41,319 nucleotides of DNA from Bacteroides sp. ET71 (GTDB lineage: Bacteria > Bacteroidota > Bacteroidia > Bacteroidales > Bacteroidaceae): contig NZ_JAMBLS010000027.1 of assembly GCF_023336905.1 (NCBI RefSeq), positions 1-41,319 on the forward strand, read 5' to 3'. The position numbers and the translations under genes were made by a program. Positions 1,793 to 38,658 of the stretch are shown piece after piece. Below the pieces are notes generated by a model. The model saw only the letters and a list, made by a program, of their open reading frames with translations. It was not told the origin of the DNA and ran no database searches. How positions within the stretch are numbered: the stretch's first letter is position 1; each line of letters begins with the position of its first letter.

Positions 1793-1993
1793 GTTGACAA
1801 GTTGACGAGTTGACAAGGCAACGAGTTGACGAGTTGACGAGTTAACAAGTAAACAAGGCCACGAGGGCATAACTTATCCCTTGCCAACTCGTCAACTCGC
1901 CAACTCATTAATTAGATTATTGCAAGACCTTGTTGCCTTGTCAACTCGTCAACTCGTCAACTTGTTGCCTTGTCAACTTATCAACTCGTCAAC
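1793..1993. repeat. inverted array of phased 8-bp units
   Basis: Directly after the rfbA stop, nine octamers run in strict register (1793-1864), variants of GTTGACGA or GTTGACAA. After 16 bp come three octamers in reverse-complement sense (1881-1904), variants of TCGTCAAC. After a 25-bp gap come eight more (1930-1993). The two sides are reverse complements, so the spacer can fold into a long imperfect hairpin between rfbA and rfbB. Unit variants such as GGCAACGA and TTGTTGCC occur on both sides. Confidence 0.85.
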
Positions 1994-2015
1994 TATTAAA
2001 TTATCATTTACTAAT

Positions 2016-3155
2016 ATGAAGACTTACCTCGTAACCGGCGCCGCCGGATTCATAGGCGCCAACTACATCAAGTACCTGCTGCGCATACACGAACACATCC
2101 GTATCGTCGTGCTCGACGCGCTGACCTACGCAGGCAACCTCGGCACCATCGCTGCCGACATCGACAACGACCGCTGCATCTTCGTCCGCGGAGACATCGG
2201 CGACCGTGCCCTGGTGGACGACCTCTTTGCCCGCTACAAGTTCGACTACGTCGTCAACTTCGCTGCCGAGAGCCACGTCGACCGCAGCATTGAGAACCCC
2301 CAGCTCTTCCTCATCACCAATATCCTGGGCACCCAGAACCTGCTCGACGCCGCCCGCCGCGCATGGGTCACTGGCAAGGACGAGACGGGCTATCCCACCT
2401 GGCGTCCCGGCGTGCGCTACCACCAGGTCAGCACCGACGAAGTCTACGGCTCCCTGGGCGACGAAGGCTACTTCACCGAGCAGACACCCCTCTGCCCCCA
2501 CAGCCCGTACAGCGCCTCGAAGACCAGTGCCGACCTCTTCGTCATGGCCTACCACGACACCTACCACATGCCCGTCAGCATCACCCGCTGCAGCAACAAC
2601 TACGGCCCCTATCACTTCCCCGAGAAGCTGATACCGCTCATCATCAAAAACATCCTGGAAGGCAAGCAACTGCCCGTCTATGGCAACGGCAGCAACGTCC
2701 GCGACTGGCTCTATGTGGAAGACCACTGCAAGGCCATTGACCTCGTCGTACGCCAAGGGCGCGAGGGCGAAGTCTACAACGTGGGCGGACACAACGAAAA
2801 GACTAACCTGGAGATTGTGAAGCTGACTATCGCCACCATCCACCGCCTGATGGAGTCGCACCCCGAATACCGCAAGGTGCTGAAGAAGCAAGTGCTGACA
2901 GCCGACGGCGACATCGACATCTCGTGGATTAACGACAGCCTCATCACCTTCGTCAAAGACCGTCTGGGCCATGACCAACGCTATGCCATCGACCCCACCA
3001 AGATACGCGAGGAACTGGGTTGGTATCCCGAGACCACCTTCGAAGTAGGCATCGTCCGCACCATCGAGTGGTACCTCAACCACCAGGACTGGGTGGAAGA
3101 AGTGACCAGCGGTGACTACCAGAAATACTACGAGCGCATGTATGGCGACCGCTAA
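2016..3155 (+). CDS. rfbB: dTDP-glucose 4,6-dehydratase
   Basis: RfbB/RmlB is an NAD-dependent SDR enzyme that converts dTDP-glucose to dTDP-4-keto-6-deoxyglucose. The start is placed at the ATG at 2016, giving 379 residues. An in-frame ATG at 1881 would add 45 residues translated from the octamer repeats, and the Rossmann motif TGAAGFIG sits at residues 7-14 from the chosen start, as in the family. The active-site STDEVYG (139-145) and YSASK (165-169, Tyr/Lys pair) are present. Its stop codon overlaps the convergent menA stop by 4 bp. Confidence 0.95.
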   Translation: MKTYLVTGAAGFIGANYIKYLLRIHEHIRIVVLDALTYAGNLGTIAADIDNDRCIFVRGDIGDRALVDDLFARYKFDYVVNFAAESHVDRSIENPQLFLITNILGTQNLLDAARRAWVTGKDETGYPTWRPGVRYHQVSTDEVYGSLGDEGYFTEQTPLCPHSPYSASKTSADLFVMAYHDTYHMPVSITRCSNNYGPYHFPEKLIPLIIKNILEGKQLPVYGNGSNVRDWLYVEDHCKAIDLVVRQGREGEVYNVGGHNEKTNLEIVKLTIATIHRLMESHPEYRKVLKKQVLTADGDIDISWINDSLITFVKDRLGHDQRYAIDPTKIREELGWYPETTFEVGIVRTIEWYLNHQDWVEEVTSGDYQKYYERMYGDR

Positions 3156-4060
3156 CAGAGCGCCACGCTCAGCAGTATTCCCAAGAACAGCATATTGCAC
3201 GAAGTCTCGCCCAATATGCTGTTCAGCTTTTCCCCCTGCCGGATGAGGCACATGCTGCGCCACGTCATCAGGTGCATGTACAGATAGATGCACGGCGCCC
3301 ACATGAACTCCAGCCACGTCAGTCTCCCGCTATACACGAACCACAGGCAGAGCAGCACGGCCACTATGCCCAGCGCCAGGTAGAACTGCCGCCCGAACGA
3401 AGCGCCGAAGCGCACAATCAGCGTCATCTTGCCGCTCACCCTGTCTTGCTCTATGTCCCGGTAGTTGTTGATGGTCAGCAGCGTGTCTATCACCACGCCC
3501 GACACCAGCGACAGCACCAGCACGTCGACATTCAGCACCCCCGTCTGCACATAATACGTCCCTCCCACGGACACCAGCCCGAAGAACACCAGCACCAGCA
3601 GGTCGCCCCAACCCCGGTAGGAGAGCAGGGTGGTGTACAGGAAAGCAAAGAGCAGGCATACCACTCCCAGCACCACCAGTTCCCAGCCCCCTTGTGGCAG
3701 TTCGTTCCACGTCAGATACACCACAGACAGCCCGCACAGGCAGGCCAGCAACAGCGTCACGCCGATGCCCAGCTTCATGTTCCGGGGCGAAATCCACCCT
3801 TCGGCACAGGCACGCTTCGGCCCCAGCCGGTCTTCGCGGTCGGTCCCTTTCTGGTAGTCGAACAAATCGTTGATGAAATTGGCTGCCACTTGCATCAGGC
3901 AGGCAAAGAGCAGGCACAGCACCGCTTCCGCAGTCTGGAACTTCCCGTCGGAAAAGGCAAGCCCGCTGCCCAGCATCACGGGAATCAGGGCTGCCGTCAG
4001 CGTCTTGGGGCGCGATGCCAGCAGCCAGGCGTAAACTGAATTGGGTCGGATGGTCTTCAT
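3152..4060 (-). CDS. menA: 1,4-dihydroxy-2-naphthoate polyprenyltransferase
   Basis: A 302-residue UbiA-superfamily membrane prenyltransferase that attaches the polyprenyl tail to 1,4-dihydroxy-2-naphthoate in menaquinone synthesis. The Asp-rich prenyl-diphosphate motif is visible as NDLFDYQKGTDRED near residues 64-77, and a second polar motif NNYRDIEQD lies farther on. Many hydrophobic segments fit the usual eight or nine helices. The N-terminus begins WLLASRPKTL, typical of MenA. It is transcribed alone, convergent with rfbB. The matching methyltransferase menG lies at 34 kb in this window. Confidence 0.94.
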   Translation of the reverse strand: MKTIRPNSVYAWLLASRPKTLTAALIPVMLGSGLAFSDGKFQTAEAVLCLLFACLMQVAANFINDLFDYQKGTDREDRLGPKRACAEGWISPRNMKLGIGVTLLLACLCGLSVVYLTWNELPQGGWELVVLGVVCLLFAFLYTTLLSYRGWGDLLVLVFFGLVSVGGTYYVQTGVLNVDVLVLSLVSGVVIDTLLTINNYRDIEQDRVSGKMTLIVRFGASFGRQFYLALGIVAVLLCLWFVYSGRLTWLEFMWAPCIYLYMHLMTWRSMCLIRQGEKLNSILGETSCNMLFLGILLSVALC

Positions 4061-4079
4061 AAGGTTCTGTTTTTATCCC

Positions 4080-4111
4080 CAAAGATAAGCGAAAGCAGGG
4101 AATTGTGCAAC
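4080..4111 (-). promoter_or_regulatory. promoter for menA
   Basis: Reading the minus strand, TATCTTTG (4087 down to 4080) is preceded after 20 bp by GTTG (4111 down to 4108). This is a good Bacteroides -7 box with a near-consensus -33 box, placed about 20 bp before the menA ATG. Confidence 0.6.
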
Positions 4112-4228
4112 AGAAATTCCTTATAATTACACAGCGGGTACGAGAAATGTTACCGGTGCGGACAAACCAGCATGTGCGGTCGGCAAATACATCTTTTTTA
4201 CTATTCAGGTAAGGTTCATATTGCTTCC

Positions 4229-4320
4229 TTATTCGTTTCTTATTCGTGTTTTGTTCGAGTCTAAGGACTCGAACTTGGTACGACTTTGGAACGACTTTGG
4301 TCGGACTTTGGTCTGGATGG
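4229..4320. repeat. inverted array of phased 11-bp units in the menA-rpsA spacer
   Basis: The 598-bp gap between menA and rpsA contains 11-bp units in register: TTATTCGTTTC, TTATTCGTGTT and TTGTTCGAGTC (4229-4261), a 4-bp centre TAAG, then GACTCGAACTT, GGTACGACTTT, GGAACGACTTT, GGTCGGACTTT and GGTCTGGATGG (4266-4320). The two central units are reverse complements over 9 bp (TTCGAGTC.. / GACTCGAA..), giving a hairpin centre. Apart from this array and the two promoters, nothing gene-like was seen in the gap. Confidence 0.8.
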
Positions 4321-4560
4321 ATGTTTTCCGGCCAGATGTTTCTGCCATATTTGGCTGTATGTAAGAACTTTTTGATGCGGATGTCTCTGGCGTTTCTCAA
4401 GCGCTTGTCTAAAAAATGCTTGAGTCATGCTTGGGTGACAATGTGGAGTCGGGATGAACTTCCTGATACCTCTCATGTCCAAGGTGGGTTTGTTGTTTGG
4501 GCTCGGGATGGCAAAATTTGAGCAAGCTCTAAAAACTCTGCGAAAACTTTGCCCTTACTT

Positions 4561-4591
4561 TTTGTCATTCAAGAAAATACTTCTATCTTTG
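4561..4591 (+). promoter_or_regulatory. strong promoter for rpsA
   Basis: TTTG (4561-4564), a 19-bp spacer and TATCTTTG (4584-4591) form a textbook Bacteroides promoter. It gives an AT-rich leader of about 60 nt before the rpsA ATG at 4659. Confidence 0.8.
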
Positions 4592-4658
4592 CAGCCGATT
4601 TATTGAGCCAATATAATGTCTCACTTAATTAATTGAAACTAACCAATTTGTTTTATTA

Positions 4659-6452
4659 ATGGAAAACTTAAAGAATGTAGCTCCCATGGAAGATTTCAAC
4701 TGGGAAGCGTATGAAAATGGCGAAACTACAACCGCTGTGAGCCACGAGGATCAGGAGAAGGCCTATGACGGCACACTGAACAAGGTGGGTGATCACGAAG
4801 TTGTAGACGGTACCGTTATCGCAATGAACAAGCGTGAGGTCGTTGTGAATATCGGTTACAAATCGGACGGAATCATCCCGATGAGCGAGTTCCGTTACAA
4901 TCCTGACTTGAAAGTGGGTGACACGGTAGAGGTGTACATCGAAAATCAGGAAGACAAGAAGGGACAGTTGGTACTGTCGCACCGCAAAGCTCGTGCATCC
5001 CGTTCGTGGGAACGCGTCAATGCTGCGCTGGAGAACCAAGAGATTATCAAGGGTTACATCAAATGCCGCACGAAGGGTGGCATGATCGTAGACGTATTCG
5101 GCATCGAAGCTTTCTTGCCGGGTTCTCAGATCGATGTGAAGCCTATCCGCGATTACGATGTATTCGTGGGCAAGACTATGGAATTCAAGGTTGTCAAGAT
5201 CAACCAGGAGTTCAAGAACGTGGTTGTTTCGCACAAGGCTCTTATTGAAGCCGAGCTGGAACAGCAGAAGAAAGAAATTATCAGCAAGCTCGAGAAGGGA
5301 CAAGTTCTCGAGGGTACTGTCAAGAATATCACTTCTTACGGTGTATTCATCGACTTGGGCGGCGTAGACGGTCTGATTCACATCACCGACTTGTCTTGGG
5401 GCCGTGTCAGCGATCCGCATGAAGTGGTTGAGCTCGACCAGAAGCTGAATGTCGTTATCCTCGACTTCGATGACGAGAAGAAACGCATTGCCTTGGGTCT
5501 GAAGCAACTGACTCCGCATCCTTGGGATGCTCTCGACCCGAACCTGAAGGTGGGCGACCACGTGAAGGGCAAGGTTGTCGTGATGGCAGACTATGGTGCA
5601 TTTATCGAAATCGCTCCGGGCGTAGAAGGTTTGATTCACGTTTCCGAGATGTCTTGGTCGCAGCACTTGCGTTCGGCTCAGGACTTCATGAAGGTGGGCG
5701 ACGAGGTAGAGGCTGTTGTCCTGACACTGGATCGCGAAGAGCGTAAGATGTCTTTGGGTATCAAGCAACTGAAACCGGATCCTTGGGAAACTATCGAAGA
5801 GAAGTATCCTGTGGGCAGCAAGCACACGGCCAAGGTGCGCAACTTCACGAACTTTGGTGTGTTTGTAGAGTGTGAGGAAGGCGTAGACGGCTTGATTCAC
5901 ATTTCTGACCTGTCTTGGACGAAGAAAGTAAAACATCCGTCTGAATTTACGCAGATTGGTGCTGACATCGAAGTCATTGTACTGGAAATCGACAAGGAGA
6001 ATCGTCGCCTGAGCTTGGGTCACAAGCAGTTGGAAGAGAATCCTTGGGATGTGTTCGAAACAGTCTTCACGGTAGGCTCTGTACACGAGGGTACCATCAT
6101 CGAAATGCTGGAGAAGGGTGCAGTTGTCGCTCTGCCGTATGGCGTAGAGGGCTTTGCTACTCCGAAGCATCTGGTGAAGGAAGATGGCACGCAGGCTCAG
6201 TTGGAAGAAAAACTGCCCTTCAAGGTGCTGGAATTCAACAAAGAAGCCAAGCGCATCATCTTGTCTCACAGCCGTGTGTTCGAAGATGCTGCCAAGGCCG
6301 AAGAAAGAGCCGAAAGAAAGGCTGCCAAGAAGTCTAACAGCAAGAAAGAGGAAGTGCCTTCCATTCAGAACCAGGCTGCCTCTACGACGTTGGGAGACAT
6401 CAGTGCTTTGGCTGCGCTGAAAGAGCAAATGGAGGCTGAACAGAAGAAATAA
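4659..6452 (+). CDS. rpsA: 30S ribosomal protein S1
   Basis: A 597-residue S1 protein with six recognisable S1/OB-fold RNA-binding repeats, starting near residues 52, 133, 219, 305, 391 and 480. Repeats 3 to 5 carry the conserved GVFIDLGGVDGLIH-type core and are each followed by a LGLKQL-like linker. The C-terminal 60 residues are Lys/Glu-rich and low in complexity. S1 binds mRNA on the small subunit; Bacteroidota use weak Shine-Dalgarno signals, so S1 is likely important for initiation. It has its own promoter and a strong terminator, so it is monocistronic. Confidence 0.96.
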   Translation: MENLKNVAPMEDFNWEAYENGETTTAVSHEDQEKAYDGTLNKVGDHEVVDGTVIAMNKREVVVNIGYKSDGIIPMSEFRYNPDLKVGDTVEVYIENQEDKKGQLVLSHRKARASRSWERVNAALENQEIIKGYIKCRTKGGMIVDVFGIEAFLPGSQIDVKPIRDYDVFVGKTMEFKVVKINQEFKNVVVSHKALIEAELEQQKKEIISKLEKGQVLEGTVKNITSYGVFIDLGGVDGLIHITDLSWGRVSDPHEVVELDQKLNVVILDFDDEKKRIALGLKQLTPHPWDALDPNLKVGDHVKGKVVVMADYGAFIEIAPGVEGLIHVSEMSWSQHLRSAQDFMKVGDEVEAVVLTLDREERKMSLGIKQLKPDPWETIEEKYPVGSKHTAKVRNFTNFGVFVECEEGVDGLIHISDLSWTKKVKHPSEFTQIGADIEVIVLEIDKENRRLSLGHKQLEENPWDVFETVFTVGSVHEGTIIEMLEKGAVVALPYGVEGFATPKHLVKEDGTQAQLEEKLPFKVLEFNKEAKRIILSHSRVFEDAAKAEERAERKAAKKSNSKKEEVPSIQNQAASTTLGDISALAALKEQMEAEQKK

Positions 6453-6475
6453 TAGGTTTCCATAAGATAAGCGAG

Positions 6476-6518
6476 AAGGCATCTGTGGCTATGAAAGCCC
6501 GGATGCCTTTTTATTTTG
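6476..6518 (+). terminator. rho-independent terminator after rpsA
   Basis: An outer stem AAGGCATC (6476-6483) / GATGCCTT (6502-6509) encloses an inner GGCT/AGCC stem and is followed by a T-rich tail. It starts 24 bp after the rpsA stop. Confidence 0.85.
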
Positions 6519-6591
6519 GGTGATTTTGGCGGCGCAGGCTTGCTTTTCTTGCACAATTTGTGTTCCTTTGTGAAATTATGTTTGTGTCGTT

Positions 6592-7506
6592 ATGGAGAAA
6601 TTCGAGCTATATATCTTGGGTTGTGGTTCAGCCTTGCCCACAACAAGACATTTCCCTACTTCGCAAGTGCTTAATGTACGCGATAAATTATATATGATTG
6701 ACTGCGGCGAGGGTGCGCAGTTGCAGTTCCGCAAGTCGCGTTTGAAGTTCTCGCGCCTGAATCATATTTTTATCTCACACCTGCACGGCGACCATTGTTT
6801 TGGGTTGTGGGGATTGATTTCTACCTTGAATCTGTTGGGGCGGACTGCCGAGCTGCACATCTATTCTCCTCGCGGGCTGGAAGCGTTGCTCCTTCCTACA
6901 TTGGCCTTTTTCAACAGGCAGATGACTTATCGGGTGCTGTTCCATGAGTTTGATACAGACAGACCTGCGTTGATTTATGAAGACCGTTCGTTGACGGTGA
7001 CTACCATACCTTTGCGGCATCGTATTCCTTGTTGCGGTTTCCTTTTTGCTGAGAAGCAGGGCCTCAATCATATTGTTCGTGAGATGGTAGATTTTTATAA
7101 AGTGCCTTTGTTTGAAATGAACCGGATTAAGAACGGGGCTGATTATGTGACTCCCGAGGGAGAGGTTGTACCCAATCGTTTGTTGACGCGTCCGGCAGAC
7201 CCTCCGCGCAGGTATGCCTATTGCTCGGACACTATCTGTCTGCCGGGGCTCGCCGCGCAGCTTCGGGGGGTGGATCTGCTGTTTCACGAAGCTACTTTTG
7301 CCTCGGACAACTTGGGGCGGGCTAAGGAAACTTATCATACTACGGCAGTGCAGGCCGCTGAACTGGCACGTTCGGCAGAGGTAAAGAAGTTGTTGATTGG
7401 CCATTTCTCTGCCCGTTACGAGGATGAATCTGTGTTGTTGGAAGAGGCGCGGGAGATTTTTCCGGAGACTCTGTTAGCCAGCGAAATGCTTTGTGTGCAG
7501 GTATGA
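6592..7506 (+). CDS. rnz: ribonuclease Z
   Basis: A 304-residue metallo-beta-lactamase-fold tRNA 3'-processing endonuclease. The zinc motif HLHGDH sits at residues 63-68. Further ligands are visible in the HRIPCCGFLF, YCSDT and LLIGHFSARY segments, the last being the C-terminal His motif. The length is that of the short bacterial RNase Z. A TATGTTTG box at 6577-6584 lies very close to the ATG at 6592, and its nearest TTTG is at a poor 16-bp spacing, so the promoter is uncertain. Confidence 0.94.
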   Translation: MEKFELYILGCGSALPTTRHFPTSQVLNVRDKLYMIDCGEGAQLQFRKSRLKFSRLNHIFISHLHGDHCFGLWGLISTLNLLGRTAELHIYSPRGLEALLLPTLAFFNRQMTYRVLFHEFDTDRPALIYEDRSLTVTTIPLRHRIPCCGFLFAEKQGLNHIVREMVDFYKVPLFEMNRIKNGADYVTPEGEVVPNRLLTRPADPPRRYAYCSDTICLPGLAAQLRGVDLLFHEATFASDNLGRAKETYHTTAVQAAELARSAEVKKLLIGHFSARYEDESVLLEEAREIFPETLLASEMLCVQV

Positions 7507-7522
7507 TTTTTCTTCCTGTGTT

Positions 7523-7553
7523 TTTGCAGTGTGGGGGAGAAGCCGTATCTTTG
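7523..7553 (+). promoter_or_regulatory. promoter for the ECF sigma operon
   Basis: TTTG (7523-7526), a 19-bp spacer and TATCTTTG (7546-7553) match the housekeeping Bacteroides promoter, about 155 bp upstream of the sigma-factor ATG. This suggests basal transcription by the primary sigma factor; an autoregulated promoter is not excluded. Confidence 0.7.
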
Positions 7554-7594
7554 TCCGTTGAAAAATGGGAATTTATGTGCGCGGAGCACACAAT

Positions 7595-7689
7595 GGTTAA
7601 TGATAAGTGGTTAATAGTCTGTACATGAGCCATTTTGTCACGTATTAACCATTAACCATTTATCATTAACCACTGCGGGCAAAGCCCGC
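7595..7689. repeat. inverted array of phased 7-bp units plus GC hairpin in the sigma operon leader
   Basis: Units GGTTAAT, GATAAGT and GGTTAAT (7595-7615) face ATTAACC, ATTAACC, ATTTATC and ATTAACC (7644-7671). The arms pair over 20 of 21 positions. Immediately after lies a perfect hairpin GCGGGC-AAA-GCCCGC (7675-7689), 20 bp before the sigma-factor start. Both lie downstream of the promoter, so they would be in the mRNA leader. Confidence 0.8.
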
Positions 7690-7709
7690 CAAATTATCAT
7701 TTACAGACT

Positions 7710-8264
7710 ATGGGTTCTTCTTATAATGAAAGTGAAGTCTTGGCCCTTTTGCAAGATGAAAGTACGCAACGGAAAGGATTCGAGATGGTTGTAGCGCAGT
7801 ATAGCGAGCAACTGTATTGGCAAATCCGCCGGATGGTGTTTTCGCACGATGATGCCAACGATTTGCTGCAAAATACATTCATCAAGGCATGGGTCAATAT
7901 AGACTATTTCCGGGCAGAGGCCAAGCTCTCTACTTGGCTCTATCGCATAGCTTTGAATGAGTGCTTGACCTTTCTGAACAAGCAGCGGGCTGCAGCCACC
8001 GTTCCCTTGGATGACCCGGAAGCCGACGTGTTGCAGAGGTTGGAGGGGGACGCTTATTTCTCCGGCGATAAGGCACAGATGCTGTTGCAGAAAGCCTTGC
8101 TTACTTTGCCCGAGAAGCAACGGATGGTCTTCAATCTGAAATATTTCCAGGAAATGAAATACGAAGAGATGTCCGAAATCTTCGGTACTTCCGTAGGCGC
8201 CTTGAAAGCATCCTATCACCACGCCATAAAGAAAATAGAGAAATTTTTGGAAGAAGGACTTTAA
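7710..8264 (+). CDS. ECF-type RNA polymerase sigma-70 family factor
   Basis: A 184-residue two-domain sigma factor. Region 2 (about residues 25-92) shows the typical DDANDLLQNTFIKAWVNI and STWLYRIALN segments. Region 4 (about 125-180) shows LPEKQRMVFNLKYFQEMKYEEMSEIFGTS, an HTH for -35 recognition. It heads an apparent operon with a small single-pass membrane protein and an exported helical protein. This arrangement recalls Bacteroidota ECF units in which the next gene holds the sigma factor inactive. The target regulon cannot be inferred. Confidence 0.92.
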   Translation: MGSSYNESEVLALLQDESTQRKGFEMVVAQYSEQLYWQIRRMVFSHDDANDLLQNTFIKAWVNIDYFRAEAKLSTWLYRIALNECLTFLNKQRAAATVPLDDPEADVLQRLEGDAYFSGDKAQMLLQKALLTLPEKQRMVFNLKYFQEMKYEEMSEIFGTSVGALKASYHHAIKKIEKFLEEGL

Positions 8265-9171: not shown

Positions 9172-9180
9172 GCGTCGAAA

Positions 9181-9244
9181 GCGGATTACGCAGATTTCAC
9201 AGACATAAGTTCTAAACTTAGTCTGCAAAATCTGCGTTTAATTT
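9181..9244. repeat. inverted array of 9-bp units, possible terminator
   Basis: Units GCGGATTAC, GCAGATTTC and ACAGACATA (9181-9207) face TTAGTCTGC, AAAATCTGC and GTTTAATTT (9218-9244). The pairing ACGCAGATTT (9188-9197) / AAATCTGCGT (9228-9237) is perfect. A run of seven T follows soon after. It is the likely 3' end of the ECF operon. Confidence 0.7.
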
Positions 9245-9356
9245 ATACCTGTTTTTTTAGAACCTGTTGTTTATTTTTTTGTTTACTTTGCTGTTCAGAA
9301 TGAAGTGAAGAATCTCCCTCTTTCCTTAGGTTGTCCGGCGCCCTTTCGGTTGCTAT

Positions 9357-9549
9357 CATTCTGTCATGTCGAGCGTTGTTCTCCCCCGACAAACGGGGAA
9401 GGTAAGAGGGGGTGTGAAGCGAAGTCGAAACATCTCCCGAAAGACACGATTCCCTTGGGCAGTGCATGTAGTGAGATTCTTCGACTACGCCCTACGGGCT
9501 TCGCTCAGAATGACAGATACCTCATTCTCCATTATAGTATAAACTAATT
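9357..9549 (+). repeat. dispersed intergenic repeat, family B copy 1
   Basis: An element of about 190 bp that contains GTTCTCCCCCGACAAACGGG near its left end, a central GAAGTCGAAACATCTCC, and a right end with GAGATTCTTCGACTACG and CGCTCAGAATGACAGATA. It closely matches the copies at 9727-9949 and, inverted, 25024-25270. It lies in a 1.1-kb gene-free stretch (9172-10271) that holds only repeats and the upxY promoter and leader. Confidence 0.8.
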
Positions 9550-9557
9550 ATGAACAG

Positions 9558-9724
9558 TTAAGTATGTATGCAAAATTAAATGATACTTTAGCAGTAGGAG
9601 GTGCCGCATCCTTGCGGCACACCGTCACATGGGTTCTGAACGCTTATAGTGTGGCACGCATAATGAATGTGCCGCAGGATGCGGCACCTCCTATAACGGC
9701 CCATTCATGTATAAATTAAATTTC
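9558..9724 (+). repeat. dispersed intergenic repeat, family A copy 1
   Basis: An element of about 165 bp whose core is a large inverted repeat: TAGGAGGTGCCGCATCC (from 9595) pairs with GGATGCGGCACCTCCTA (to 9693), extended by GCGGCAC/GTGCCGC. It is flanked by AAGTATGTATGCAAAATTAA and CATTCATGTATAAATTAAAT. A near-identical copy in the same orientation is at 23675-23842 and a decayed one at about 12247-12400. Confidence 0.85.
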
Positions 9725-9726
9725 AG

Positions 9727-9949
9727 TAAGTAGATGTTGAAAATTAGTTTATATGATGTGTGCCTGTCATGTTGAGCATTGTTCTCCCCCGACAAACGGG
9801 GGAGGTAAGAGGGGGTGCGGAGCGAAGTCGAAACATCTCCTTCTTGCGCTGCCAGACGGACAGAGACCTTAGGGAGATTCTTCGACTACGCCCTACGGGC
9901 TTCGCTCAGAATGACAGATACCTCATTCTCTAGTTAGTATAAACTAAAT
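9727..9949 (+). repeat. dispersed intergenic repeat, family B copy 2
   Basis: A second B element abuts A copy 1. Its left 100 bp, including TAAGTAGATGTTGAAAATTA and GTGTGCCTGTCATGTTGAGC, matches the inverse of the 25-kb copy almost base for base. Its right part matches copy 1. The middle differs (CTTCTTGCGCTGCC here), so the inner segment is variable. Confidence 0.8.
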
Positions 9950-10071
9950 ATCAACGGCTACTTACCTACTTACTTATTATATTTTTGTTTGTTAAGTTCT
10001 TGTCGTTTTAAATCATATTTTTTCTTTATCCGAAAAATGCGCTTGAAGGAAAGTTTAAAATCCATAATGGC

Positions 10072-23674: not shown

Positions 23675-23842
23675 TTAAGTATGTATGCAAAATTAAATGA
23701 TACTTTATCGGTAGGAGGTGCCGCATCCTTGCGGCACACCATCATATGGTTGCTGAACGCTTGTAGTGTGGCGCGCATAGTGAATGTGCCGCAGGATGCG
23801 GCACCTCCTATGACTGCCCATTCATGTATAAACTAAATGTCA
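23675..23842 (+). repeat. dispersed intergenic repeat, family A copy 2
   Basis: Near-identical to the 9558 copy and in the same orientation, with the stem TAGGAGGTGCCGCATCC (from 23712) / GGATGCGGCACCTCCTA (to 23810). Its right end (ATAAACTAAAT then CAACATCTACTTA) runs into the wzz start region, matching sequence beside other repeat copies. It marks the boundary between the Rpn gene and wzz. Confidence 0.85.
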
Positions 23843-23854
23843 ACATCTACTTAT

Positions 23855-25023: not shown

Positions 25024-25270
25024 TTTAGTTTATACTATCGATGTATCTGTCATTCTGAGCGTTGTTCTCCCCCGACAAACGGGGGAGCAAAGAGGGGGTT
25101 GAAGCGTAGTCGAAGAATCTCACTACATGCACTGCCCAAGGGAATCGTGTCTTTCGGGAGATGTTTCGACTTCGCTTCACACCCCCTCTTACCTCCCCCG
25201 TTTGTCGGGGGAGAACAATGCTCAACATGACAGGCACACATCATATAAATTAATTTTCAACATCTACTTA
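25024..25270 (-). repeat. dispersed intergenic repeat, family B copy 3 (inverted)
   Basis: A full-length B element between wzz and wza, in the opposite orientation to the copies at 9357 and 9727. Both of its ends carry the GTTCTCCCCCGACAAACGGG block in inverted orientation, so the element is itself a large palindrome. Its inner part (CCCAAGGGAATCGTGTCTTTCGGG) matches copy 1, while its outer flank matches copy 2. No independent gene lies in the 330-bp wzz-wza gap. Confidence 0.85.
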
Positions 25271-28708: not shown

Positions 28709-28906
28709 TCTGACATCACGCGTGAAAGGGTTCTGACATCGCGCGTGTTTTGGTTTGTTAATAGGCGTGATGTCCGGAGGCTTTCACGCGTGATGTCAGA
28801 AAGGTAGCTAGCGTGATGCAAATTGGTAACACCCGTGATGCAGGCGGAAAGCTGGCGTGATGCAAATCGGTAACACGCGTGATGCTGGCGGAAAGCTGGC
28901 GTGATG
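28709..28906. repeat. GCGTGATG array with 22-23-bp period
   Basis: Seven copies of (G/C)CGTGATG start at 28765, 28788, 28811, 28833, 28855, 28877 and 28899, so the period is 23, 23, 22, 22, 22, 22. Two reverse-sense copies (CATCACGC at 28714 and CATCGCGC at 28737) are 23 bp apart. A perfect 20-bp inverted repeat pairs 28709-28728 with 28781-28800. The right part consists of 11-bp words, such as GCGTGATGCAA, ATCGGTAACAC and GCGGAAAGCTG, repeated as a 44-bp block. It fills most of the 447-bp mazG-flavodoxin gap. Confidence 0.85.
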
Positions 28907-31314: not shown

Positions 31315-32232
31315 TTAGAACCTGGAGCCTGCTCCTCCGCCTCCTCCGCTTCCGCCGCCAAAGCTGCCTCCGAATCCTCCGCCACCTCCGAATCCTCCGC
31401 CAAATCCTCCGCCGAAGATGACCGGGCCTCCCCAGCCTCCGCCTCGCCCGCGGTTGTTGTCCTGTCCGTGGCGCTCGCGGCGCTTGACGACGTGGCCGCA
31501 GTTGCGGCAGATATACGTCACTTCTTCCGTCTTCACGCCGTTGTGGAAGGAGACCACCTGGCTGCTGGCACGCTTCAGCGTATGTTTCTTGCACCGGGGG
31601 CAACGTGTCTTGCGTCGGGCTGCTGCAATGCTGATAGCTATGGCAAAGAGGATGAAGGCAAAGATGATGGCAACGGCGGTTCCCAAGTCTCCGTCTTCGG
31701 ACGTACTGCTGTCGTTTTCCATCGAACCATCCAGACGGGCACACGTGGCGCGGATACCCGCTACCATGCCTTCGCTCCAGCGTTCGTCTTTCAGGTAGGG
31801 AATCATGTCTTTCGTCTGGATGCGCTTGCAGATGGCATCGGGCAGCACGCCTTCCAGGCCGTAACCTGTGTAGAACTGTATGCAGCGCTGGTCAGTGACG
31901 AGCAGGATGACCAGCCCGTTGTCCTTTCCCTTCTTGCCTACGCCCCACGAATTGAGCAGTTCGTGGCAGAAGTCGAAGCATTCCATGTCACCGATGCAGG
32001 GCACTACAACCACTACGGTCTCGATGCCCGTCTGCTGCTCCAGGCGGTAGAGCATGCGGTCGATGCTGTCCGTGGCGGCGGGGCTGATGATGCCTGCGGG
32101 GTCGCACAGATAGCGGTATTTGTTCTGGATATGCACCTTGGGCAAGTTGTCGGGCGTATAGATGGTTTGCTGTGCCCGCACACAGAGAGGCAGGCACAGC
32201 CATAGGATGAGCAGGGGTATAATTCGTTTCAT
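31315..32232 (-). CDS. TPM-domain (YgcG-like) membrane protein with Gly-rich tail
   Basis: A protein of 305 residues. Signal peptide MKRIIPLLILWLCLPLCVRAQ (1-21), then a TPM domain (about 37-180) with DPAGIISPAATDSIDRMLYRLEQQTGIETVVVVVP, NGLVILLVTDQRCIQFYTGYGLEG and an R/D-rich end. One membrane span follows (about 200-220), then a four-Cys knuckle CPRCKKH..CRNCGH like a zinc ribbon, and a C-terminal Gly/Phe-rich tail ending GAGSRF. The start at 32232 excludes an upstream extension lacking a signal sequence. TPM proteins are linked to lemA and envelope or photosystem maintenance; the role here is unknown. Confidence 0.88.
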   Translation of the reverse strand: MKRIIPLLILWLCLPLCVRAQQTIYTPDNLPKVHIQNKYRYLCDPAGIISPAATDSIDRMLYRLEQQTGIETVVVVVPCIGDMECFDFCHELLNSWGVGKKGKDNGLVILLVTDQRCIQFYTGYGLEGVLPDAICKRIQTKDMIPYLKDERWSEGMVAGIRATCARLDGSMENDSSTSEDGDLGTAVAIIFAFILFAIAISIAAARRKTRCPRCKKHTLKRASSQVVSFHNGVKTEEVTYICRNCGHVVKRRERHGQDNNRGRGGGWGGPVIFGGGFGGGFGGGGGFGGSFGGGSGGGGGAGSRF

Positions 32233-32281
32233 GCAGTCTCTTCTTGATGTTTCGGCGGCTAAGATACGGCTTTTGCGGGAG

Positions 32282-33250: not shown

Positions 33251-33264
33251 ACCTGTCTCTGTGG

Positions 33265-34011
33265 TTAGCGGTGCCAAATCTCCCAGGCAGCAAAGGCTTG
33301 CAAGAGTAACATCTCCAGTCCGTTCTTCACCGTGGCGCCCTGGGCGCGGCCTTTCTTCATGAAGAGGGTTTCGTCGGGATTGTATAGCAGGTCGTAGAGT
33401 AGGTGCTGGGGCGTCAGCAGTTCGTAGGGGATGTCCGGGCAGAAGTCTACTTTGGGGTACATGCCCACGGGCGTGCAGTTGACGATGATGGTGTGCTCGG
33501 CCATCACTTCAGGCGTCAGGTCGGCGTAGGTCAATGTTTCGCTGTCCCGCTTGCTGCGCGAGACATAGGTGCTCTCTATGCCCAGGTTGGCCAGGCCGTG
33601 GTAGACGGCTTTCGAGGCGCCGCCCGTGCCCAGCAGCAATGCCTTCTTATGATGGGGTTGCAGCAAGGGTTCGATGGACTGCGTGAAGCCGATGATGTCC
33701 GAGTTGTAGCCCACGAGTTTCACCTTGGCTTTGCCTTGGCGGATGATTTTGATGACGTTCACGGCACCTATCTTGGCCGTGTCCGGGTCGAGTTCGTCCA
33801 GGTAGGGGATGACCTGTTCCTTGTAGGGGATGGTGACGTTGAGGCCGCAGAGATTGATGTTTTCCGTCACTACCTCGGGGAAGTCCTCGATGCGGGGGAT
33901 TTCGAAGTTGACATACTCTGCGTCGATGTTTTCCGACTGGAACTTCTCGTTGAAGTAGGTCACTGAGAAGGAGTGGCCCAGCGGATAGCCGATTAAACCG
34001 TATTTGTCCAT
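33265..34011 (-). CDS. aroE: shikimate dehydrogenase
   Basis: A protein of 248 residues that reduces 3-dehydroshikimate with NADPH in chorismate synthesis, which also feeds menaquinone. Substrate motif GHSFSVTYFN (12-21), catalytic Lys64 in NVTIPYKEQ, and an NADP loop LLGTGGASKAVYHGL farther on. The start at 34011 (MDKYGLIGYPLGHS) is set by the family N-terminus; an in-frame extension reaching 34332 would run through menG. It is 38 bp after menG on the same strand. Confidence 0.95.
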   Translation of the reverse strand: MDKYGLIGYPLGHSFSVTYFNEKFQSENIDAEYVNFEIPRIEDFPEVVTENINLCGLNVTIPYKEQVIPYLDELDPDTAKIGAVNVIKIIRQGKAKVKLVGYNSDIIGFTQSIEPLLQPHHKKALLLGTGGASKAVYHGLANLGIESTYVSRSKRDSETLTYADLTPEVMAEHTIIVNCTPVGMYPKVDFCPDIPYELLTPQHLLYDLLYNPDETLFMKKGRAQGATVKNGLEMLLLQAFAAWEIWHR

Positions 34012-34049
34012 AGTGTGTATGATGAAAGTTAAAGGTGTGATTCTTAGGG

Positions 34050-34784
34050 TTATTTCGTCGCCATATACAGCGTGCAGACCCCGAACGTCAGCCGCCGGAA
34101 CCGTACGTCCGAAAAGCCCGCGCGGCGGATGCTCTCGCTCATCACCTCGCCTTGCGGGAAGGCGCGGATGCTCTGCGGCAGGTAGGTGTAGGCGCTGCGG
34201 TCGTGCGACACGAGGCGGCCCATCAGCGGGATGAGCCGTGAGTAAATCCGATAGAGTTGCTTCATGGGGAAGCGGTCGGGCGTGGAGAGTTCGAGGATGA
34301 CGAGGTGACCGCCGGGACGAAGCACGCGGCACATCTCGCGCAGGCCGCGGTCCAGGTGCTCGAAGTTGCGGATGCCGAAGGCCACGGTGACGGCATCGAA
34401 CGAGGCGTCGGCAAACGTCAGCGCCTCACAGTCTTCGCGGCGGAAGCTGATGCGCTCGTCCAGTCCCGCCTCCCGTGCCTTGCGGCGTGCCACCTGCATC
34501 ATGCCCTCCGAGATGTCCGTGCCCACCAGCGACTGCGGCCGAAGCATCCGGCAGGCCAGCAGGGCGAAGTCCCCCGTGCCTGTAGCTACGTCCATCATCT
34601 GTTGCGGCCGGTGGGGGCGCAACCACTTCAGCGCCGTGCGCCGCCATGAGCGGTCGATGCCCAGCGACATGAGGTGGTTCAGGCGGTCGTAGGCGGGGGC
34701 GATGTGGTCGAACATACGCTCCACCTGCTCCACCTTCTTGCCCTCCTGTCCGTAGGGCTTGACTTTCTCTTGAGGATAGTCCAT
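34050..34784 (-). CDS. menG: demethylmenaquinone methyltransferase
   Basis: A 244-residue class I SAM methyltransferase of the UbiE/MenG family, which methylates demethylmenaquinone in the last step of menaquinone synthesis. Family features: [27 protein letters not shown] (19-44), the SAM loop DVATGTGDF (65-73), [23 protein letters not shown] and the [10 protein letters not shown] end motif. It is followed by aroE. Bacteroides use menaquinone rather than ubiquinone, so menG is the preferred name (ubiE by homology). Confidence 0.95.
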
Positions 34785-34891
34785 TGCAATAATGATATTT
34801 GTTTACAAACTCATGAATCCCGGTATTCGAGGTACAGGCCTCCGACCTCTCCGCATACCCCCCTCCAGAAGTACTTCTGAGCGGGGTTCAA

Positions 34892-35011
34892 ACCCCACGC
34901 GTGGGGTATCAGCAAGGGGCACTCGTGGGGCACCATCACACCCCACGCGTGGGGTATAAAGTGGCCCCACGAGTGGGTGTCGGTCACAGCCCGTCCGTGG
35001 GATTCGGCCGG
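34892..35011. repeat. five tandem 24-bp units with ACCCCACGCGTGGGGT palindromes
   Basis: Five 24-bp units fill 34892-35011 exactly, ending 3 bp before the purC stop codon. Units 1 and 3 start with the perfect 16-bp palindrome ACCCCACGCGTGGGGT. Units 2, 4 and 5 are variants (GGGGCACTCGTGGGGC, GCCCCACGAGTGGG, AGCCCGTCCGTGGG). The palindrome centres are spaced exactly 24 bp. Units 2 and 4 can also pair with each other. It is the whole purC-menG spacer apart from about 105 bp. Confidence 0.88.
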
Positions 35012-35014
35012 GGC

Positions 35015-35959
35015 TTACTGATGGAGATAATTCGTTACATTCCGTTCGATGCGCGCGGCGATGTCCTCCGTGTCCTGCGGCACGAACTTCTCGCCGGTGA
35101 TGTGCTCGTACAGCTCCACGTAGCGGTCGCTGATGCCGCGGACGATGTCGTCCGTCATCTCGGGCACCTGCTGTCCCTCCTTGCCTTGGAAGCCGTTCTC
35201 CATCAGCCATTCGCGCACGAATTCCTTCGAGAGCTGGCGTTGCGGCTCGCCCTTGGCGAAACGCTCCTCGTAGCCCTCGCTGTAGAAGTAGCGGCTGGAA
35301 TCGGGCGTGTGTATCTCATCCATCAGGTAGATTTGTCCGTCGTGCTTGCCGAACTCATACTTTGTATCCACCAGGATAAGTCCTCGCTCGGCGGCAATCT
35401 TCGTACCGCGCTCGAAGAGGCGCAGGGTGTAGTCCTCCAGCACGGCGTATTCCTCGGGCGTGCAGAGGCCGCGCGCCAGGATTTCCTCTTTGGAGATGTC
35501 GGCATCGTGTTCGCCGATTTCGGCCTTCGTCGTCGGGGTGATGATGGGTACGGGGAATTTCTGGTTCTCCTTCATGCCCTCCGGCAGACGCACGCCGCAG
35601 ATTTCGCGCACGCCACTCTTATAGGCACGCCAGGCCGAGCCGCAGAGGTAGCCGCGCACAATCATTTCCAGGGGGAATCCCTCACAGAACACGCCTACGG
35701 TCACCATCGGGTCGGGCGTAGCCAGCTTCCAGTTGGGGCAGATGTCCGTCGTGGCGTCGAGGAACTTTGCGGCAATCTGATTCAGTATCTGTCCCTTGAA
35801 GGGGATGCCTTTGGGCAGGATGACGTCAAAGGCCGAGATGCGGTCCGTAGCCACCATGACGAGTTTCTCACCGTTGATGTTGTACACGTCGCGTACTTTC
35901 CCGTGGTAGACAGATTGCTGTCCGGGGAAGTTGTAGTCTGTTTTAGTTAATGCTTTCAT
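35015..35959 (-). CDS. purC: phosphoribosylaminoimidazole-succinocarboxamide synthase
   Basis: A 314-residue SAICAR synthetase, the ATP-dependent step that joins CAIR and aspartate in purine synthesis. Typical segments: [58 protein letters not shown] and [12 protein letters not shown]. The length matches the longer Bacteroidota/yeast-type PurC rather than the short E. coli form. Its first 17 bp overlap the 3' end of phoH, so the two are cotranscribed. Confidence 0.96.
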
Positions 35960-36950
35960 ATCTTGTTGTTTTAGCTATGGTTTCTTCTTTCTTGCGCTCC
36001 CGTTCCGCCTTCTGCTCCTTCTCGTACTTGTCGTAGGCCTCAACGATGCGGGTGACTAATTTATGTCGCACGATATCCTTCTGGTTCAGTTCGATGAAGG
36101 AGATGCCTTTGACTCCCTTCAATATCTTCATGGCCTGTACCAACCCCGACACCTGCGACGACGGCAAGTCAATCTGTGTCATGTCGCCCGTCACAATCAT
36201 CTTGGTGTTCATGCCCATGCGGGTGAGGAACATCTTGATTTGGGCAGAGGTCGTGTTCTGCGCTTCGTCCAGAATGACCACGGCGTCATTCAGCGTCCGT
36301 CCGCGCATGAAGGCCAGCGGAGCAATCTGTATGACGTTCTGGTCCATGTATTCTTGTAGCTTGGCGGCGGGAATCATGTCCTGCAAGGCGTCGTAAAGAG
36401 GTTGCAGGTAGGGGTCAATCTTCTCCTTCATGTCGCCCGGCAGGAAGCCCAGTTTCTCGCCTGCCTCCACGGCGGGGCGGCTCAGGATAATCTTCTTGAT
36501 CTCCTTGTTCTTCAATGCCCGTACGGCCAGGGCGATGGCGGTGTATGTTTTTCCCGAACCCGCCGGGCCGATGGCAAAAACCATGTCGTGCTCGCGGAAG
36601 GCGTCCACCAGGCGTTGCTGGTTCTCGCTGCGGGGGATGATAGGCTTTCCCGTGACGCTGAACACGATGACATTGCCGCTCTTTTCGGCCTGTGGGGCGT
36701 TGCCTTTGATGATGTCGATGATGACTTCTTCCTTCAGTTGGTTATATTCAGCGCAATATTTCTCCAGTTTGATGATATTCTCCTCGAAGGCGCACATTTC
36801 TTCCTCATCGCCCAGCACCTTGATGACGTTGCCCCGTGCCACGATGCGCAGTTTGGGGTAGAGTGCCTTGATGAGTTGCATGTTGGCGTTATTTACGCCG
36901 TAGAAAATGACGGGGTCTATGTCTTCGAGTACAATCAGTTTTTCTATCAT
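35943..36950 (-). CDS. phoH: PhoH-family ATPase
   Basis: A 335-residue PhoH/PhoL protein. The N-terminal KH-like part (1-100) precedes an ATPase core with Walker A GPAGSGKT (128-135), [19 protein letters not shown], Walker [10 protein letters not shown] (224-232) and an R-finger-like TRMG segment. PhoL-type proteins are linked to RNA and ribosome maturation (YbeZ partner YbeY). The C-terminus is Lys/Glu-rich. It is the first gene of a phoH-purC unit; a TACCTTTG box (36985 down to 36978) lies 28 bp before the ATG. Confidence 0.94.
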
Positions 36951-37037
36951 TCAGTTCGTTTTCTGTGCTATTTTCCGCAAAGGTAGTGAAAGGTTTGCAT
37001 ACTTCGTGCGGAGGCCTCCCGTTTTTTTATGCGGAGG

Positions 37038-37069
37038 TTTGGAGAAAAGGATTGCATCTCCTATCTTTG
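37038..37069 (+). promoter_or_regulatory. promoter of the second toxin-antitoxin pair
   Basis: TTTG (37038-37041), a 20-bp spacer and TATCTTTG (37062-37069) form a full Bacteroides promoter, 47 bp before the antitoxin ATG. Confidence 0.75.
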
Positions 37070-37116
37070 CAAACACTAAGCATTGGAATACAAACAATCT
37101 CTAAGCATCTTGCCCT

Positions 37117-37410
37117 ATGACTACCATGACGTTGGAATCCCTGCAAAATGAAGTAATCCGCGACGTGCTCAATGTCAACGACGTCCATATCCTGAAAAAA
37201 CTGAAGAACTTCTTGCGCCGCGAAGAACGCAAGACGCAGGAGTATGCCACATCCCAGCCAGCCCCTGCCGTGGCCTCCGAAGAAGCGGAACCCTACATGA
37301 CCAAAGAAGAAATCCTGGCCAACTTCGACCAGGCTTGTAAAGAGTTAAAGCTGAACTTGGAAGGAAAACTGGAGTTTAAGACCTTAGAAGAAGCGCTCAA
37401 TGAATTGTAA
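37117..37410 (+). CDS. antitoxin-like protein paired with RelE-type toxin
   Basis: A 97-residue protein with an N-terminal LESLQNEVIRDVLNVNDVHILKKLKNFLRREE helical part and an acidic C-terminus (MTKEEILANFDQACKELKLNLEGKLEFKTLEEALNEL). This layout recurs in Bacteroidales antitoxins located before RelE-like toxins. The gene overlaps the toxin start by 11 bp. No standard DNA-binding motif is evident, so autoregulation is not established. Confidence 0.8.
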   Translation: MTTMTLESLQNEVIRDVLNVNDVHILKKLKNFLRREERKTQEYATSQPAPAVASEEAEPYMTKEEILANFDQACKELKLNLEGKLEFKTLEEALNEL

Positions 37411-37744
37411 AATTACTGTTACCCCAGATTTCCTTCGGGAACTGAAAAGACTATCTAAGCGTTACAGGTCATTGAAGACAGATTTAACCAAACTGGGAGA
37501 AGAACTACGCTTAAATCCTTTTCTGGGCACAGAGTTAGGCCATCGTCTGCGCAAGGTCCGTTTGGCAATCACCTCTAAAGGGAAGGGGAAAAGCGGCGGG
37601 GCCCGGGTAATTACCTATACCGTTATTCTTGCCCAAGCAAATACTGAAGTCAAGCTGATTACTATCTATGACAAGTCGGAGCGTGACAACATCAGCGATG
37701 CCGAATTGCTGGACATCTTGCGCCGGAACGGTATAGAAGTATAG
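37400..37744 (+). CDS. RelE/ParE-superfamily toxin
   Basis: A 114-residue basic protein: VTPDFLRELKRLSKRYRSLKTDLTKLGEELRLNPFLGTELGHRLRKVRLAITSKGKGKSGGARVITYTVIL... then LITIYDKSERDNISDAELLDIL. The K/R-rich core and YDKSE(R)xNI ending are typical of the RelE-like toxins common in Bacteroidales; mRNA cleavage is the expected activity. Its stop codon directly abuts the stop of the convergent B3/B4 gene. Confidence 0.85.
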   Translation: MNCKITVTPDFLRELKRLSKRYRSLKTDLTKLGEELRLNPFLGTELGHRLRKVRLAITSKGKGKSGGARVITYTVILAQANTEVKLITIYDKSERDNISDAELLDILRRNGIEV

Positions 37745-38416
37745 TTATCCAAATAGCAGCACCTTCCCCCCGTCCGATTCCGCATACTTCCTTAGCAACT
37801 CCTGCGTCATCCCGGCCGCCTCGTTCAACCGCTGCTCATCCCCGTCATATCCGTTGATGATAGCCAGTATGCGCCGTGTGCCGACGTCCATTTTGGTACG
37901 CTCGTTATCGCTGGTGGGCGTGCCTATGCCCCCCACTGCGTCGCGAAACACTGGCAATCCCTCGATGTTGAGCGTCCCCCGCCCGATGCCTTCGAACGGT
38001 TCGCCCGCCCGGCCTACTCCCAGACAGAGGTCCGTGCCCTGAATCTTGTCCGCATCGAAGCCGCCGATGCTGTAACCAGTGCGCAGCGAGACAAGGTTTA
38101 TCAAGTCCACCAGCGTATCAATTCTGTACAGTTCCAGTCCGCGCAACAGCCGACGCCGCAGGGCTTCAGCCGAGGGACGATAGCGGCTTGGGTCTTTTCC
38201 CAGGCGACGATAGGCTTCGCGCGTGGCGGCTATGGCAGGATGCTGTTTAATGCTGTCGGCTGTTTCCGAGACGCGCAAGGTTTGAGTAAAAGCGTCTATC
38301 TCCTGCCAAAGTCCTTCGGAATAAGGTGTGTTGGTAACTTCTGCATATACGGCTGCGCCACGATATTCGGGACAGCATGAGTGGAGGTCGGTTGAAAGGG
38401 TGAGGTGAAACTTCAT
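37745..38416 (-). CDS. B3/B4 tRNA-binding-domain protein
   Basis: A 223-residue protein resembling the B3/B4 editing domain of phenylalanyl-tRNA synthetase beta subunit, as a stand-alone gene. Visible features: TREAYRRLGKDPSRYRPSAEALRRRLLRGLELYRIDTLVDLINLVSLRTGYSIGGFDADKI and RTKMDVGTRRILAIINGYDG. Free-standing members are proposed to edit mischarged tRNA or bind amino acids; the exact role is unproven. A TATTTTTG box (38455 down to 38448) may serve as the -7 box. Confidence 0.85.
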   Translation of the reverse strand: MKFHLTLSTDLHSCCPEYRGAAVYAEVTNTPYSEGLWQEIDAFTQTLRVSETADSIKQHPAIAATREAYRRLGKDPSRYRPSAEALRRRLLRGLELYRIDTLVDLINLVSLRTGYSIGGFDADKIQGTDLCLGVGRAGEPFEGIGRGTLNIEGLPVFRDAVGGIGTPTSDNERTKMDVGTRRILAIINGYDGDEQRLNEAAGMTQELLRKYAESDGGKVLLFG

Positions 38417-38573
38417 AGTTTATAAGTGCTTTTAGTTTTTGTAGCGGCAAAAATACGGCTTTCTTCGGTAACTTTTTTGTATGGCTTTCGTTTTCTTTTC
38501 TGTTTTTCTTCTTTTGAGAAAGAGGAGGGGAAGGTTGGTGTAGTGAAAAATGTTGAGGGCATGTTCTTGTTAT

Positions 38574-38658
38574 GTTTGTATCTTGTCCGTACCTCGTCCG
38601 TACCTGGTCCGTATCTATGTGTTTGGACGAGGTAGGGAGCAGGTAGGGAGTTGGTACG
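38574..38658. repeat. inverted array of phased 11-bp units in the B3/B4-lipoprotein spacer
   Basis: GTCCGTACCTC, GTCCGTACCTG and GTCCGTATCTA run in 11-bp register (38585-38617). After an 8-bp centre come GACGAGGTAGG, GAGCAGGTAGG and GAGTTGGTACG (38626-38658), also 11-bp. The second side is the approximate reverse complement of the first (rotated GAGGTACGGAC). The rest of the 468-bp gap (38417-38884) is AT-rich and holds the promoter region; no gene was seen. Confidence 0.8.

Follow-up and report, generated by a model that had tools for sequence, protein, structure and literature searches.

The 41,319-nucleotide stretch of Bacteroides sp. ET71 analyzed here (hereafter the window; contig C27 of a draft genome that comprises 3.63 Mb and 189 contigs) carries seven intergenic arrays of short phased units, and a comparison with relatives showed that in orthologous spacers of congeners the presence of an array and its size class tend to be maintained even though the unit itself is replaced. 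Such arrays occupy about a quarter of the sampled 40–1000 bp spacers of this gut bacterium. We interpret them, with moderate confidence, as DNA-level hairpin arrays that are probably rewritten by slippage or template switching and dispersed partly by transposition. According to this interpretation, the window arrays would belong to several families of short, intergenic, non-coding inverted-repeat elements, each of which would be, or contain, either two facing arms of an iterated 7–11 bp unit or a row of often palindromic 21–24 bp units. Hairpin slippage and template switching during replication would build and homogenize the arms and units at the DNA level, transposition in trans (of IS630 type for some) would spread the elements, and certain spacers would tolerate or favor them.

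The seven arrays (Table 1) were first proposed in a sequence-only reading of the window, and their phasing was well borne out by a comparison with 500 dinucleotide shuffles each over lags 6–30. The strongest lag coincided with the proposed period in all seven (8, 11, 7, 9, 22, 24 and 11 bp, in order of position), and the periodicity score over all lags was reached by 0/500 shuffles for six of them. The remaining one, the 9-bp array at 9181-9244, is weakly periodic (P = 0.032 over all lags), has a strong reverse-complement match and is absent from the output of Tandem Repeats Finder (TRF) at score ≥30. Reverse-complement self-matches exceeded those of the shuffles in 7/7 arrays (P from 0 to 0.018, the weakest being the arrays at 38585 with P = 0.018 and at 4229 with P = 0.004); the array at 1793-1993 reached a score of 139 against a shuffle mean of 20.6. 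After this array comes TTAAATTATCATTTA, a motif that, by eye, accompanies the 7-bp family as well. The 7-bp element itself is an ordered structure composed of a small hairpin, an arm of ATGGTTA/ATGATAA units, a partly conserved loop, the reverse arm, a GC hairpin and CAAATTATCATTTA. In clustered regularly interspaced short palindromic repeats (CRISPR), repeats are separated by unique spacers of ~30 nt; in the seven arrays units abut or are joined by linkers of ~10 nt or less, which agrees with the earlier view that they are not CRISPRs (a judgment made by eye, cas genes not having been searched).

Table 1. Arrays and copies of a miniature inverted-repeat transposable element (MITE) with characteristic left (LE) and right (RE) ends in the window.
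Feature	Positions	Strand	Units, ends or context
8-bp array	1793..1993	no strand	AGTTGACR, kin units AGGCAACR and AGGCCACG; right arm is the reverse complement
11-bp array	4229..4320	no strand	left TTATTCG-type units, centre GTTCGAGTCTAAGGACTCGAAC, right (ACTTTGGTACG)n
7-bp element	7560..7709	no strand	array proper 7595-7671
9-bp inverted array	9181..9244	no strand	GCGGATTAC/GCAGATTTC
22-bp array	28709..28906	no strand	CACGCGTGATG-type words in both orientations
24-bp palindrome array	34892..35011	no strand	ACCCCACGCGTGGGGT; between purC-like gene 35015-35959(-) and gene 34050-34784(-)
11-bp array	38585..38658	no strand	(GTCCGTACCTC)n facing (AGGTAGGGAGC)n
MITE copy	9559..9726	+	LE 9559-9590; right end degenerate, abuts next copy, right limit approximate
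MITE copy	9727..9964	no strand	RE terminal repeat at both ends
MITE copy, LE/RE ends	23676..23853	+	plain inverted-repeat interior, no tandem units

Arrays of this build are a genome-wide feature. They were called (TRF score ≥40, period 6–30) in a sample consisting of the window and 400 kb of contigs C1 and C2 (441 kb in total, ~12% of the genome), with spacers delimited by a simple home-made gene caller that overlooked some genes at window 10–24 kb, so that some of the 'spacer' called there is coding. The 246 spacers (74 kb) contained 75 arrays and the coding sequence (366 kb) contained 30, while five shuffles of the same spacers yielded 0, 2, 2, 4 and 2 arrays. By simple proportion, this would correspond to ~600 arrays per genome. 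Among spacers of 40–1000 bp between called genes, 56/216 contained arrays; weak arrays escape TRF, as illustrated by the purC spacers of genome G064 and locus L084, which scored as array-free despite visible palindromes. The periods are unevenly distributed, 40 of 70 arrays falling at 21–24 bp, none at 17–20 or 25–30 bp and the remainder at 7–16 bp; in 80 loci of relatives, 58 of 125 arrays had periods of 21–24 bp. The remainder of the spacer contained a reverse-complement partner (alignment score ≥24) for 8/10 own and 17/32 relatives' arrays of 6–9 bp, for 10/20 and 11/32 arrays of 10–17 bp (null for short-unit arrays about 0.5–7%), and for 6/40 and 20/59 arrays of 20–25 bp (null 0–1.1%), the nulls as a whole spanning ~0–7%. 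Palindromic units (score ≥6) were present in 14/40 own and 13/59 relatives' arrays of 20–25 bp (null 4%). Therefore, the shared design lies well above chance without extending to every array. The common design postulated from the window alone thus holds across the sampled genome and in congeners, shuffling giving far too few arrays to account for it, while its facing-arm layout is retained only in part: all seven window arrays are self-complementary, but across the sampled genome a reverse-complement partner accompanies a fraction of arrays.

One locus compared across species is the spacer next to the purC-like gene (window 34785-35014). Named relatives by identity of the purC-like protein are Candidatus Bacteroides intestinavium (97%; locus L081 of genome G061) and uncultured Bacteroides (93–96%; L082-L087, of which L082 lies in G063, L083 in G064 and L085 in G062), followed by B. 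gallinarum (90%) and B. clarus (89%). Palindromes of the ACCCCACGCGTGGGGT type occupy this spacer in the own genome, G061 and G062; G016 has CATCAAACGGCGTTTGATG, G063 a relative of CATCAAACGGCGTTTGATG, G015 (L054) AAAGGTGCCACCTTT and L087 yet another (assignments partly by eye), B. clarus has a 7-bp array, and several Bacteroides species are almost without a spacer. By eye, the linkers align across the own genome, G061 and G062 while the palindrome cores differ, and one core variant is found in both orientations within one array. At another locus (L032:11028-11125), four genomes have spacers of 98–100 bp with 7-bp inverted arrays; the units are of three unrelated kinds, and two of the four are identical.

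Extending this comparison to 62 orthologous spacers, in which relatedness of units was decided by a shuffle test of tiled units, we found arrays in at least two genomes in 16 spacers and unrelated kinds in 14 of these. Of the 26 unrelated pairs, which are not independent where they come from one spacer, 21 had the size class in common (13.8 on average in permutations, P = 0.0006), and the class was uniform in 10 of the 14 spacers (mean 6.3, P = 0.006). With a 75% unit-identity rule, which also scores some diverged homologues as unrelated, 32/39 pairs were of the same class (mean 22.9, P = 0.0024). The presence of an array is likewise tied to the spacer for some of the genomes compared. In the comparison with G061, both genomes had arrays (of dissimilar units) in 8 spacers, only the own genome in 3, only G061 in 1 and neither in 31 (one-sided P = 9e-6; 2 related pairs left out); the corresponding counts were 5, 5, 2 and 18 for G064 (P = 0.026) and 3, 1, 1 and 14 for G033 (P = 0.016, both one-sided). 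In a set of 37 own–G061 spacers, arrays were called in both genomes for 10, in the own genome only for 2, in G061 only for 2 and in neither for 23; no alignment across the spacer was obtained for 4 of the 10 with arrays in both vs. 1/10 array-free spacers (≥40 bp). A slot-for-slot exchange of own 8-bp for G061 10-bp units was not seen; in the two cases found, the place of the G061 10-bp array is taken in the own genome by a 23-bp array or by none. Turnover between relatives, which the earlier reading had anticipated among strains, is thus observed between species: the spacer is the same, the size class mostly so, and the unit is different. A side observation at the purC-menG spacer is that its length varies from a few bases to ~240 bp among Bacteroides in which the two genes are adjacent (L081-L151).

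The units fall into families, some of which are amplified in one lineage while others are shared. Four of the seven window arrays (1793, 4229, 7595 and 38585, the last with kin at 3 own loci) have kin in the own 441-kb sample, and the initial description of all seven as unrelated and free of shared sequence fails for at least these four. No kin were found for the 22-bp array (28709-28906) in the own sample or the 80 relative loci, for the 24-bp array (34892-35011) in the own sample, or by BLAST for the 9-bp array (9181-9244) in the own sample; the 9-bp unit GCGGATTAC occurs at 17 loci in relatives' DNA, in 7 of 8 groups searched. A triplet of the 8-bp unit matched 72 overlapping places of the own genome (≤2 mismatches; ~23 loci by eye; reversed control 0), and its copies carry AGTTGACR, AGGGGACR, AGTTAACR, AGGCTACR and others, amounting by eye to a constant ACRAG frame plus three bases that vary. 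At ≤1 mismatch, the triplet matched 34 places in the own genome vs. 8 in total in 4 of 294 other Bacteroidales genomes, a draw that included only two congeners besides the own genome and in which the reversed control also had matches in two other genomes, at 1 and 9 places. The 11-bp unit of the array at 4229 matched 51 overlapping places genome-wide (~26 loci by eye; control 2), and most of 20 fetched stretches have a centre of the GTTCG...CGAAC kind (by eye). Matches to the 7-bp element numbered 13 in the own genome (itself included; ~9 loci by eye), 18 in G061, 13 in G015, 3 each in G033 and G062, 2 in G064 and 0 in G016; as no more than 40 candidates per genome were scored, the counts are minimum values for four of the genomes. 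An inverted copy with 95% identity is located on own contig C2, and 17 of 18 extracted copies (one with an incomplete right arm was left out) align with a partly conserved loop. Lineage specificity is also seen for a 10-bp GGAGTTA unit, with 21 loci in the 713 kb of G061 and 0 in the own sample (441 kb), and for two own 11-bp units with 0 loci in the fetched DNA of G061 and every other group.

A vehicle was found for part of the arrays of the sister species (G061). The 10-bp arrays of G061 have outer sequences in common with 7-bp and 9-bp arrays, and a search with the LE/RE ends returned 14 paired elements, 183–378 bp long, from the 713 kb of G061 and a single one from the window. By eye, the 14 interiors comprise 10-bp arrays (5), 8-bp arrays (4), a mixed 8-/10-bp array (1), 9-bp arrays (2), a 7-bp array (1) and a composite with a 22-bp array (1); the three MITE copies of the window are without tandem units. 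The right end alone (≤3 mismatches) was found 65 times in G061, 17 in the own genome, 15 in B. rodentium, 8 in G033, 6 in G015, 3 in G064, 2 in B. clarus and 1 in G062; the remaining 7 of 15 genomes had none, and the control gave 0 in all 15. By eye, an element of G015 contains AAAGGTGGCACCTTT palindromes resembling the G015 purC spacer, and a B. rodentium stretch with the right end contains an 11-bp array resembling that at window 38585. In G061, a MITE end lies near 15/33 arrays of 9–10 bp and 11/20 of 8/16 bp, as compared with 0/5 arrays of 11 bp and 0/3 others. Pooled, 26/53 arrays of 8–10 bp vs. 8/215 array-free spacers are near an end (P = 7e-15; spacers >1000 bp left out), an association favored by the counting itself, which allowed arrays 150 bp on each side and array-free spacers only ends inside them.

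As to mobility, one empty site (own GCTCATATATATAATAATG vs. GCTCATA, the element and TATTATATATAATAATG in G061) is compatible with TA duplication in a TA-rich context. A 1.1-kb element on G015 contig C25 has LE at 1-21 (90%; the contig starts there) and RE at 1089-1114 (88%), and the open reading frame (ORF) between them matches DDE_3 (E = 3.7e-28; the profile also matched in 3/14 control genomes). From DDE_3, the TA site and the usual features of these insertion sequences (IS), we read the LE/RE element as probably belonging to the IS630 family. Support for transposition is confined to some of the arrays of a single sister species. Elsewhere, L336 (G061 contig C117) carries a DDE_3 transposase end (73-aa frame at the locus edge) with no LE/RE ends in 1.6 kb. 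MITE right ends also lie ≤140 bases from the start of contigs C15, C31, C34, C44, C51 and C126 of G061 and C8, C71, C72, C99 and C121 of G033, so that assemblies seem to break at the elements and copy numbers may be lower bounds.

Several observations weigh against our interpretation or narrow it. Size classes differ in 4 of the 14 spacers (L032:17217, L034:18536, L039:921 and L044:13275), class fidelity may partly reflect strongly diverged homologous arrays overlooked by the relatedness test, and array presence was not significantly tied to the spacer for G062, G015 and G016. Some units are not lineage-specific, including ATTCTTM (8/8 groups) and GAGCTAC (6/8). MITE ends are near only 7/60 G061 arrays of ≥21 bp (P = 0.025) and 3/26 of 7/14 bp (P = 0.10), and in the own genome near 0/64 sampled arrays and 0/132 spacers; therefore, this MITE family does not explain the seven window arrays, and one universal vehicle for all arrays is rejected. 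The evidence for TA duplication is a single empty site in a TATATA context, and DDE_3 was found in 2/7 genomes and not in the own one, where draft assemblies may have lost repeated IS. Template switching, finally, is suggested by the palindromes, the core variants in both orientations (by eye) and a missing G-U bias in array stems (see below). A purely mutational view has its own difficulty, in that arrays are fewer in divergent spacers of 100–400 bp (slightly so when all lengths are counted) and tend to be retained by their spacer; this persistence could reflect tolerance or mild selection.

Two further readings can be upheld only tentatively. According to the first, which we regard as rather improbable, all arrays are plain mobile elements, i.e., MITE-like insertions, and the recurrence of arrays of one class at the same spacer in relatives marks hot spots of insertion and loss. 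The conserved centres, the lineage-specific copy numbers of some units, the MITE ends near about half of the G061 8–10 bp arrays and the empty site all speak for it. Yet MITE ends are not near most arrays, unrelated arrays in one spacer mostly keep their size class, and at L032:11028-11125 even the total length was kept with three different units. The second, to which we would assign an equally low likelihood, is that the form of an array is inherited without its sequence: period, inverted layout and size would be kept along the lineage at a gene boundary, whereas an active DNA-level process, either a writer enzyme or template switching among units and arms, would replace the whole unit in place, and new families of units would spread through the genome and enter MITE interiors.

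Least well supported is a function at the RNA level, in which the arrays would form mRNA hairpins serving as terminators, processing or stability elements, with pairing selected while the sequence drifts. Some positional trends point that way. Among own spacers of 100–400 bp, arrays were present in 32/86 co-directional, 2/10 convergent and 4/24 divergent ones (co-directional vs. divergent, one-sided P = 0.046), and among those of relatives in 37/217, 10/36 and 6/100, respectively (co-directional plus convergent vs. divergent, one-sided P = 0.0014). In own co-directional spacers the array is closer to the upstream stop in 30/44 cases, and some species retain an array in the same spacer. Over all lengths, however, the divergent deficit is slight (own: divergent 8/33, co-directional 44/158, convergent 4/25; relatives: 16/134, 70/507 and 14/89), and in relatives the array is closer to the stop in only 31/70. 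Moreover, the genes flanking the purC spacer are nearly adjacent in several other Bacteroides, where a terminator would presumably be costly, and no Rfam family reached its gathering score in the window. The sole test made of the terminator or mRNA-structure proposal, also contained in the sequence-only reading, did not support it. Stem mismatches in co-directional array spacers, each spacer taken once, comprised 36 G-U and 57 A-C in the own genome and 58 and 68 in relatives, i.e., 94 vs. 125 when pooled on the transcribed strand (two-sided P = 0.042, in the direction against G-U); array-free co-directional spacers gave 30 vs. 17 in the own genome (P = 0.079) and 68 vs. 82 in relatives. Because selected RNA pairing should tolerate G-U more than A-C, and with no G-U excess in array stems, RNA-structure selection was rejected as the main driver; an RNA-level function is an unlikely explanation. 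The missing bias is compatible with the DNA-level symmetry expected of hairpin arrays.

None of the known repeat systems considered matches the arrays in full. Repetitive extragenic palindromic (REP) sequences and the related REPINs form one conserved palindrome family per genome and are associated with a Y1 transposase, the REP-associated tyrosine transposase (RAYT). They resemble the present arrays as short, lineage-specific intergenic palindromes but differ in that many palindromes are found here, and Y1 transposase (PF01797) had 0 matches in the own genome (99.58% complete) as compared with 5/14 control genomes, in line with the earlier view that these are not classical REP elements. Cyanobacterial short tandemly repeated repetitive (STRR) sequences and small dispersed repeats are short tandem heptamers and small mobile repeats located between genes, a resemblance of general description. 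The closest known system is BrickBuilt, a 23-nt minisatellite within a MITE, with 19 always intergenic copies in Porphyromonas gingivalis ATCC 33277 (PMC4596501). Shared features are the order Bacteroidales, the intergenic location, spacer-less tandem repeats enclosed by a MITE that has a leader, a tail and small inverted ends, and a unit with conserved and variable positions; it differs by comprising one unit family in one species, whereas here there are many families of 7–24 bp with facing reverse-complement arms and variable interiors between shared ends. The closest heptamer case is that of the TAACTGA repeats of Beggiatoaceae, Cyanobacteria and some Bacteroidetes, which (PMC4679880) are likewise intergenic direct repeats, sporadic across lineages and without a known spreading mechanism. 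They differ in being a single heptamer with 2–6 copies per set in the BOGUAY genome and one inverted case, mostly located just upstream of start codons. In another study (PMC5771137), the authors state that short repeats of 3–31 bp were left unannotated. The open-licence literature that we searched contains no description of such arrays; as far as that search reaches, many units with one design, facing arms, shared ends that enclose differing interiors, and replacement of the unit between species with its class preserved are new. If arrays are indeed rewritten with their form kept, they would constitute a natural record of bacterial template switching and slippage, and would influence how intergenic regions diverge, where assemblies break and perhaps how genes are insulated in Bacteroides. 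Because the MITE ends are shared and the interiors differ, these elements provide a direct experimental handle.

Further repeats and elements were noted in passing. The window contains adjacent MITE copies or remnants at 9296-9964 and 25245-25270, with interiors holding a GATTCTTCGACTACGCC...CAGAATGACAG inverted repeat, a 44-bp tandem duplication in an AT-rich spacer (47-135; TRF score 122) and a 42-bp tandem repeat (31333-31416) inside the called gene 31315-32232 (minus strand), whose codons there are glycine-rich. On own contig C1, the spacer L032:7449-7743 is well conserved in G061 and includes a short ORF (L032:7560-7646, MKSFNYAYYFFFYFYFSHKVEREFVCVK) followed by a GC hairpin and a T run, an arrangement that looks like a Phe/Tyr leader peptide attenuator.

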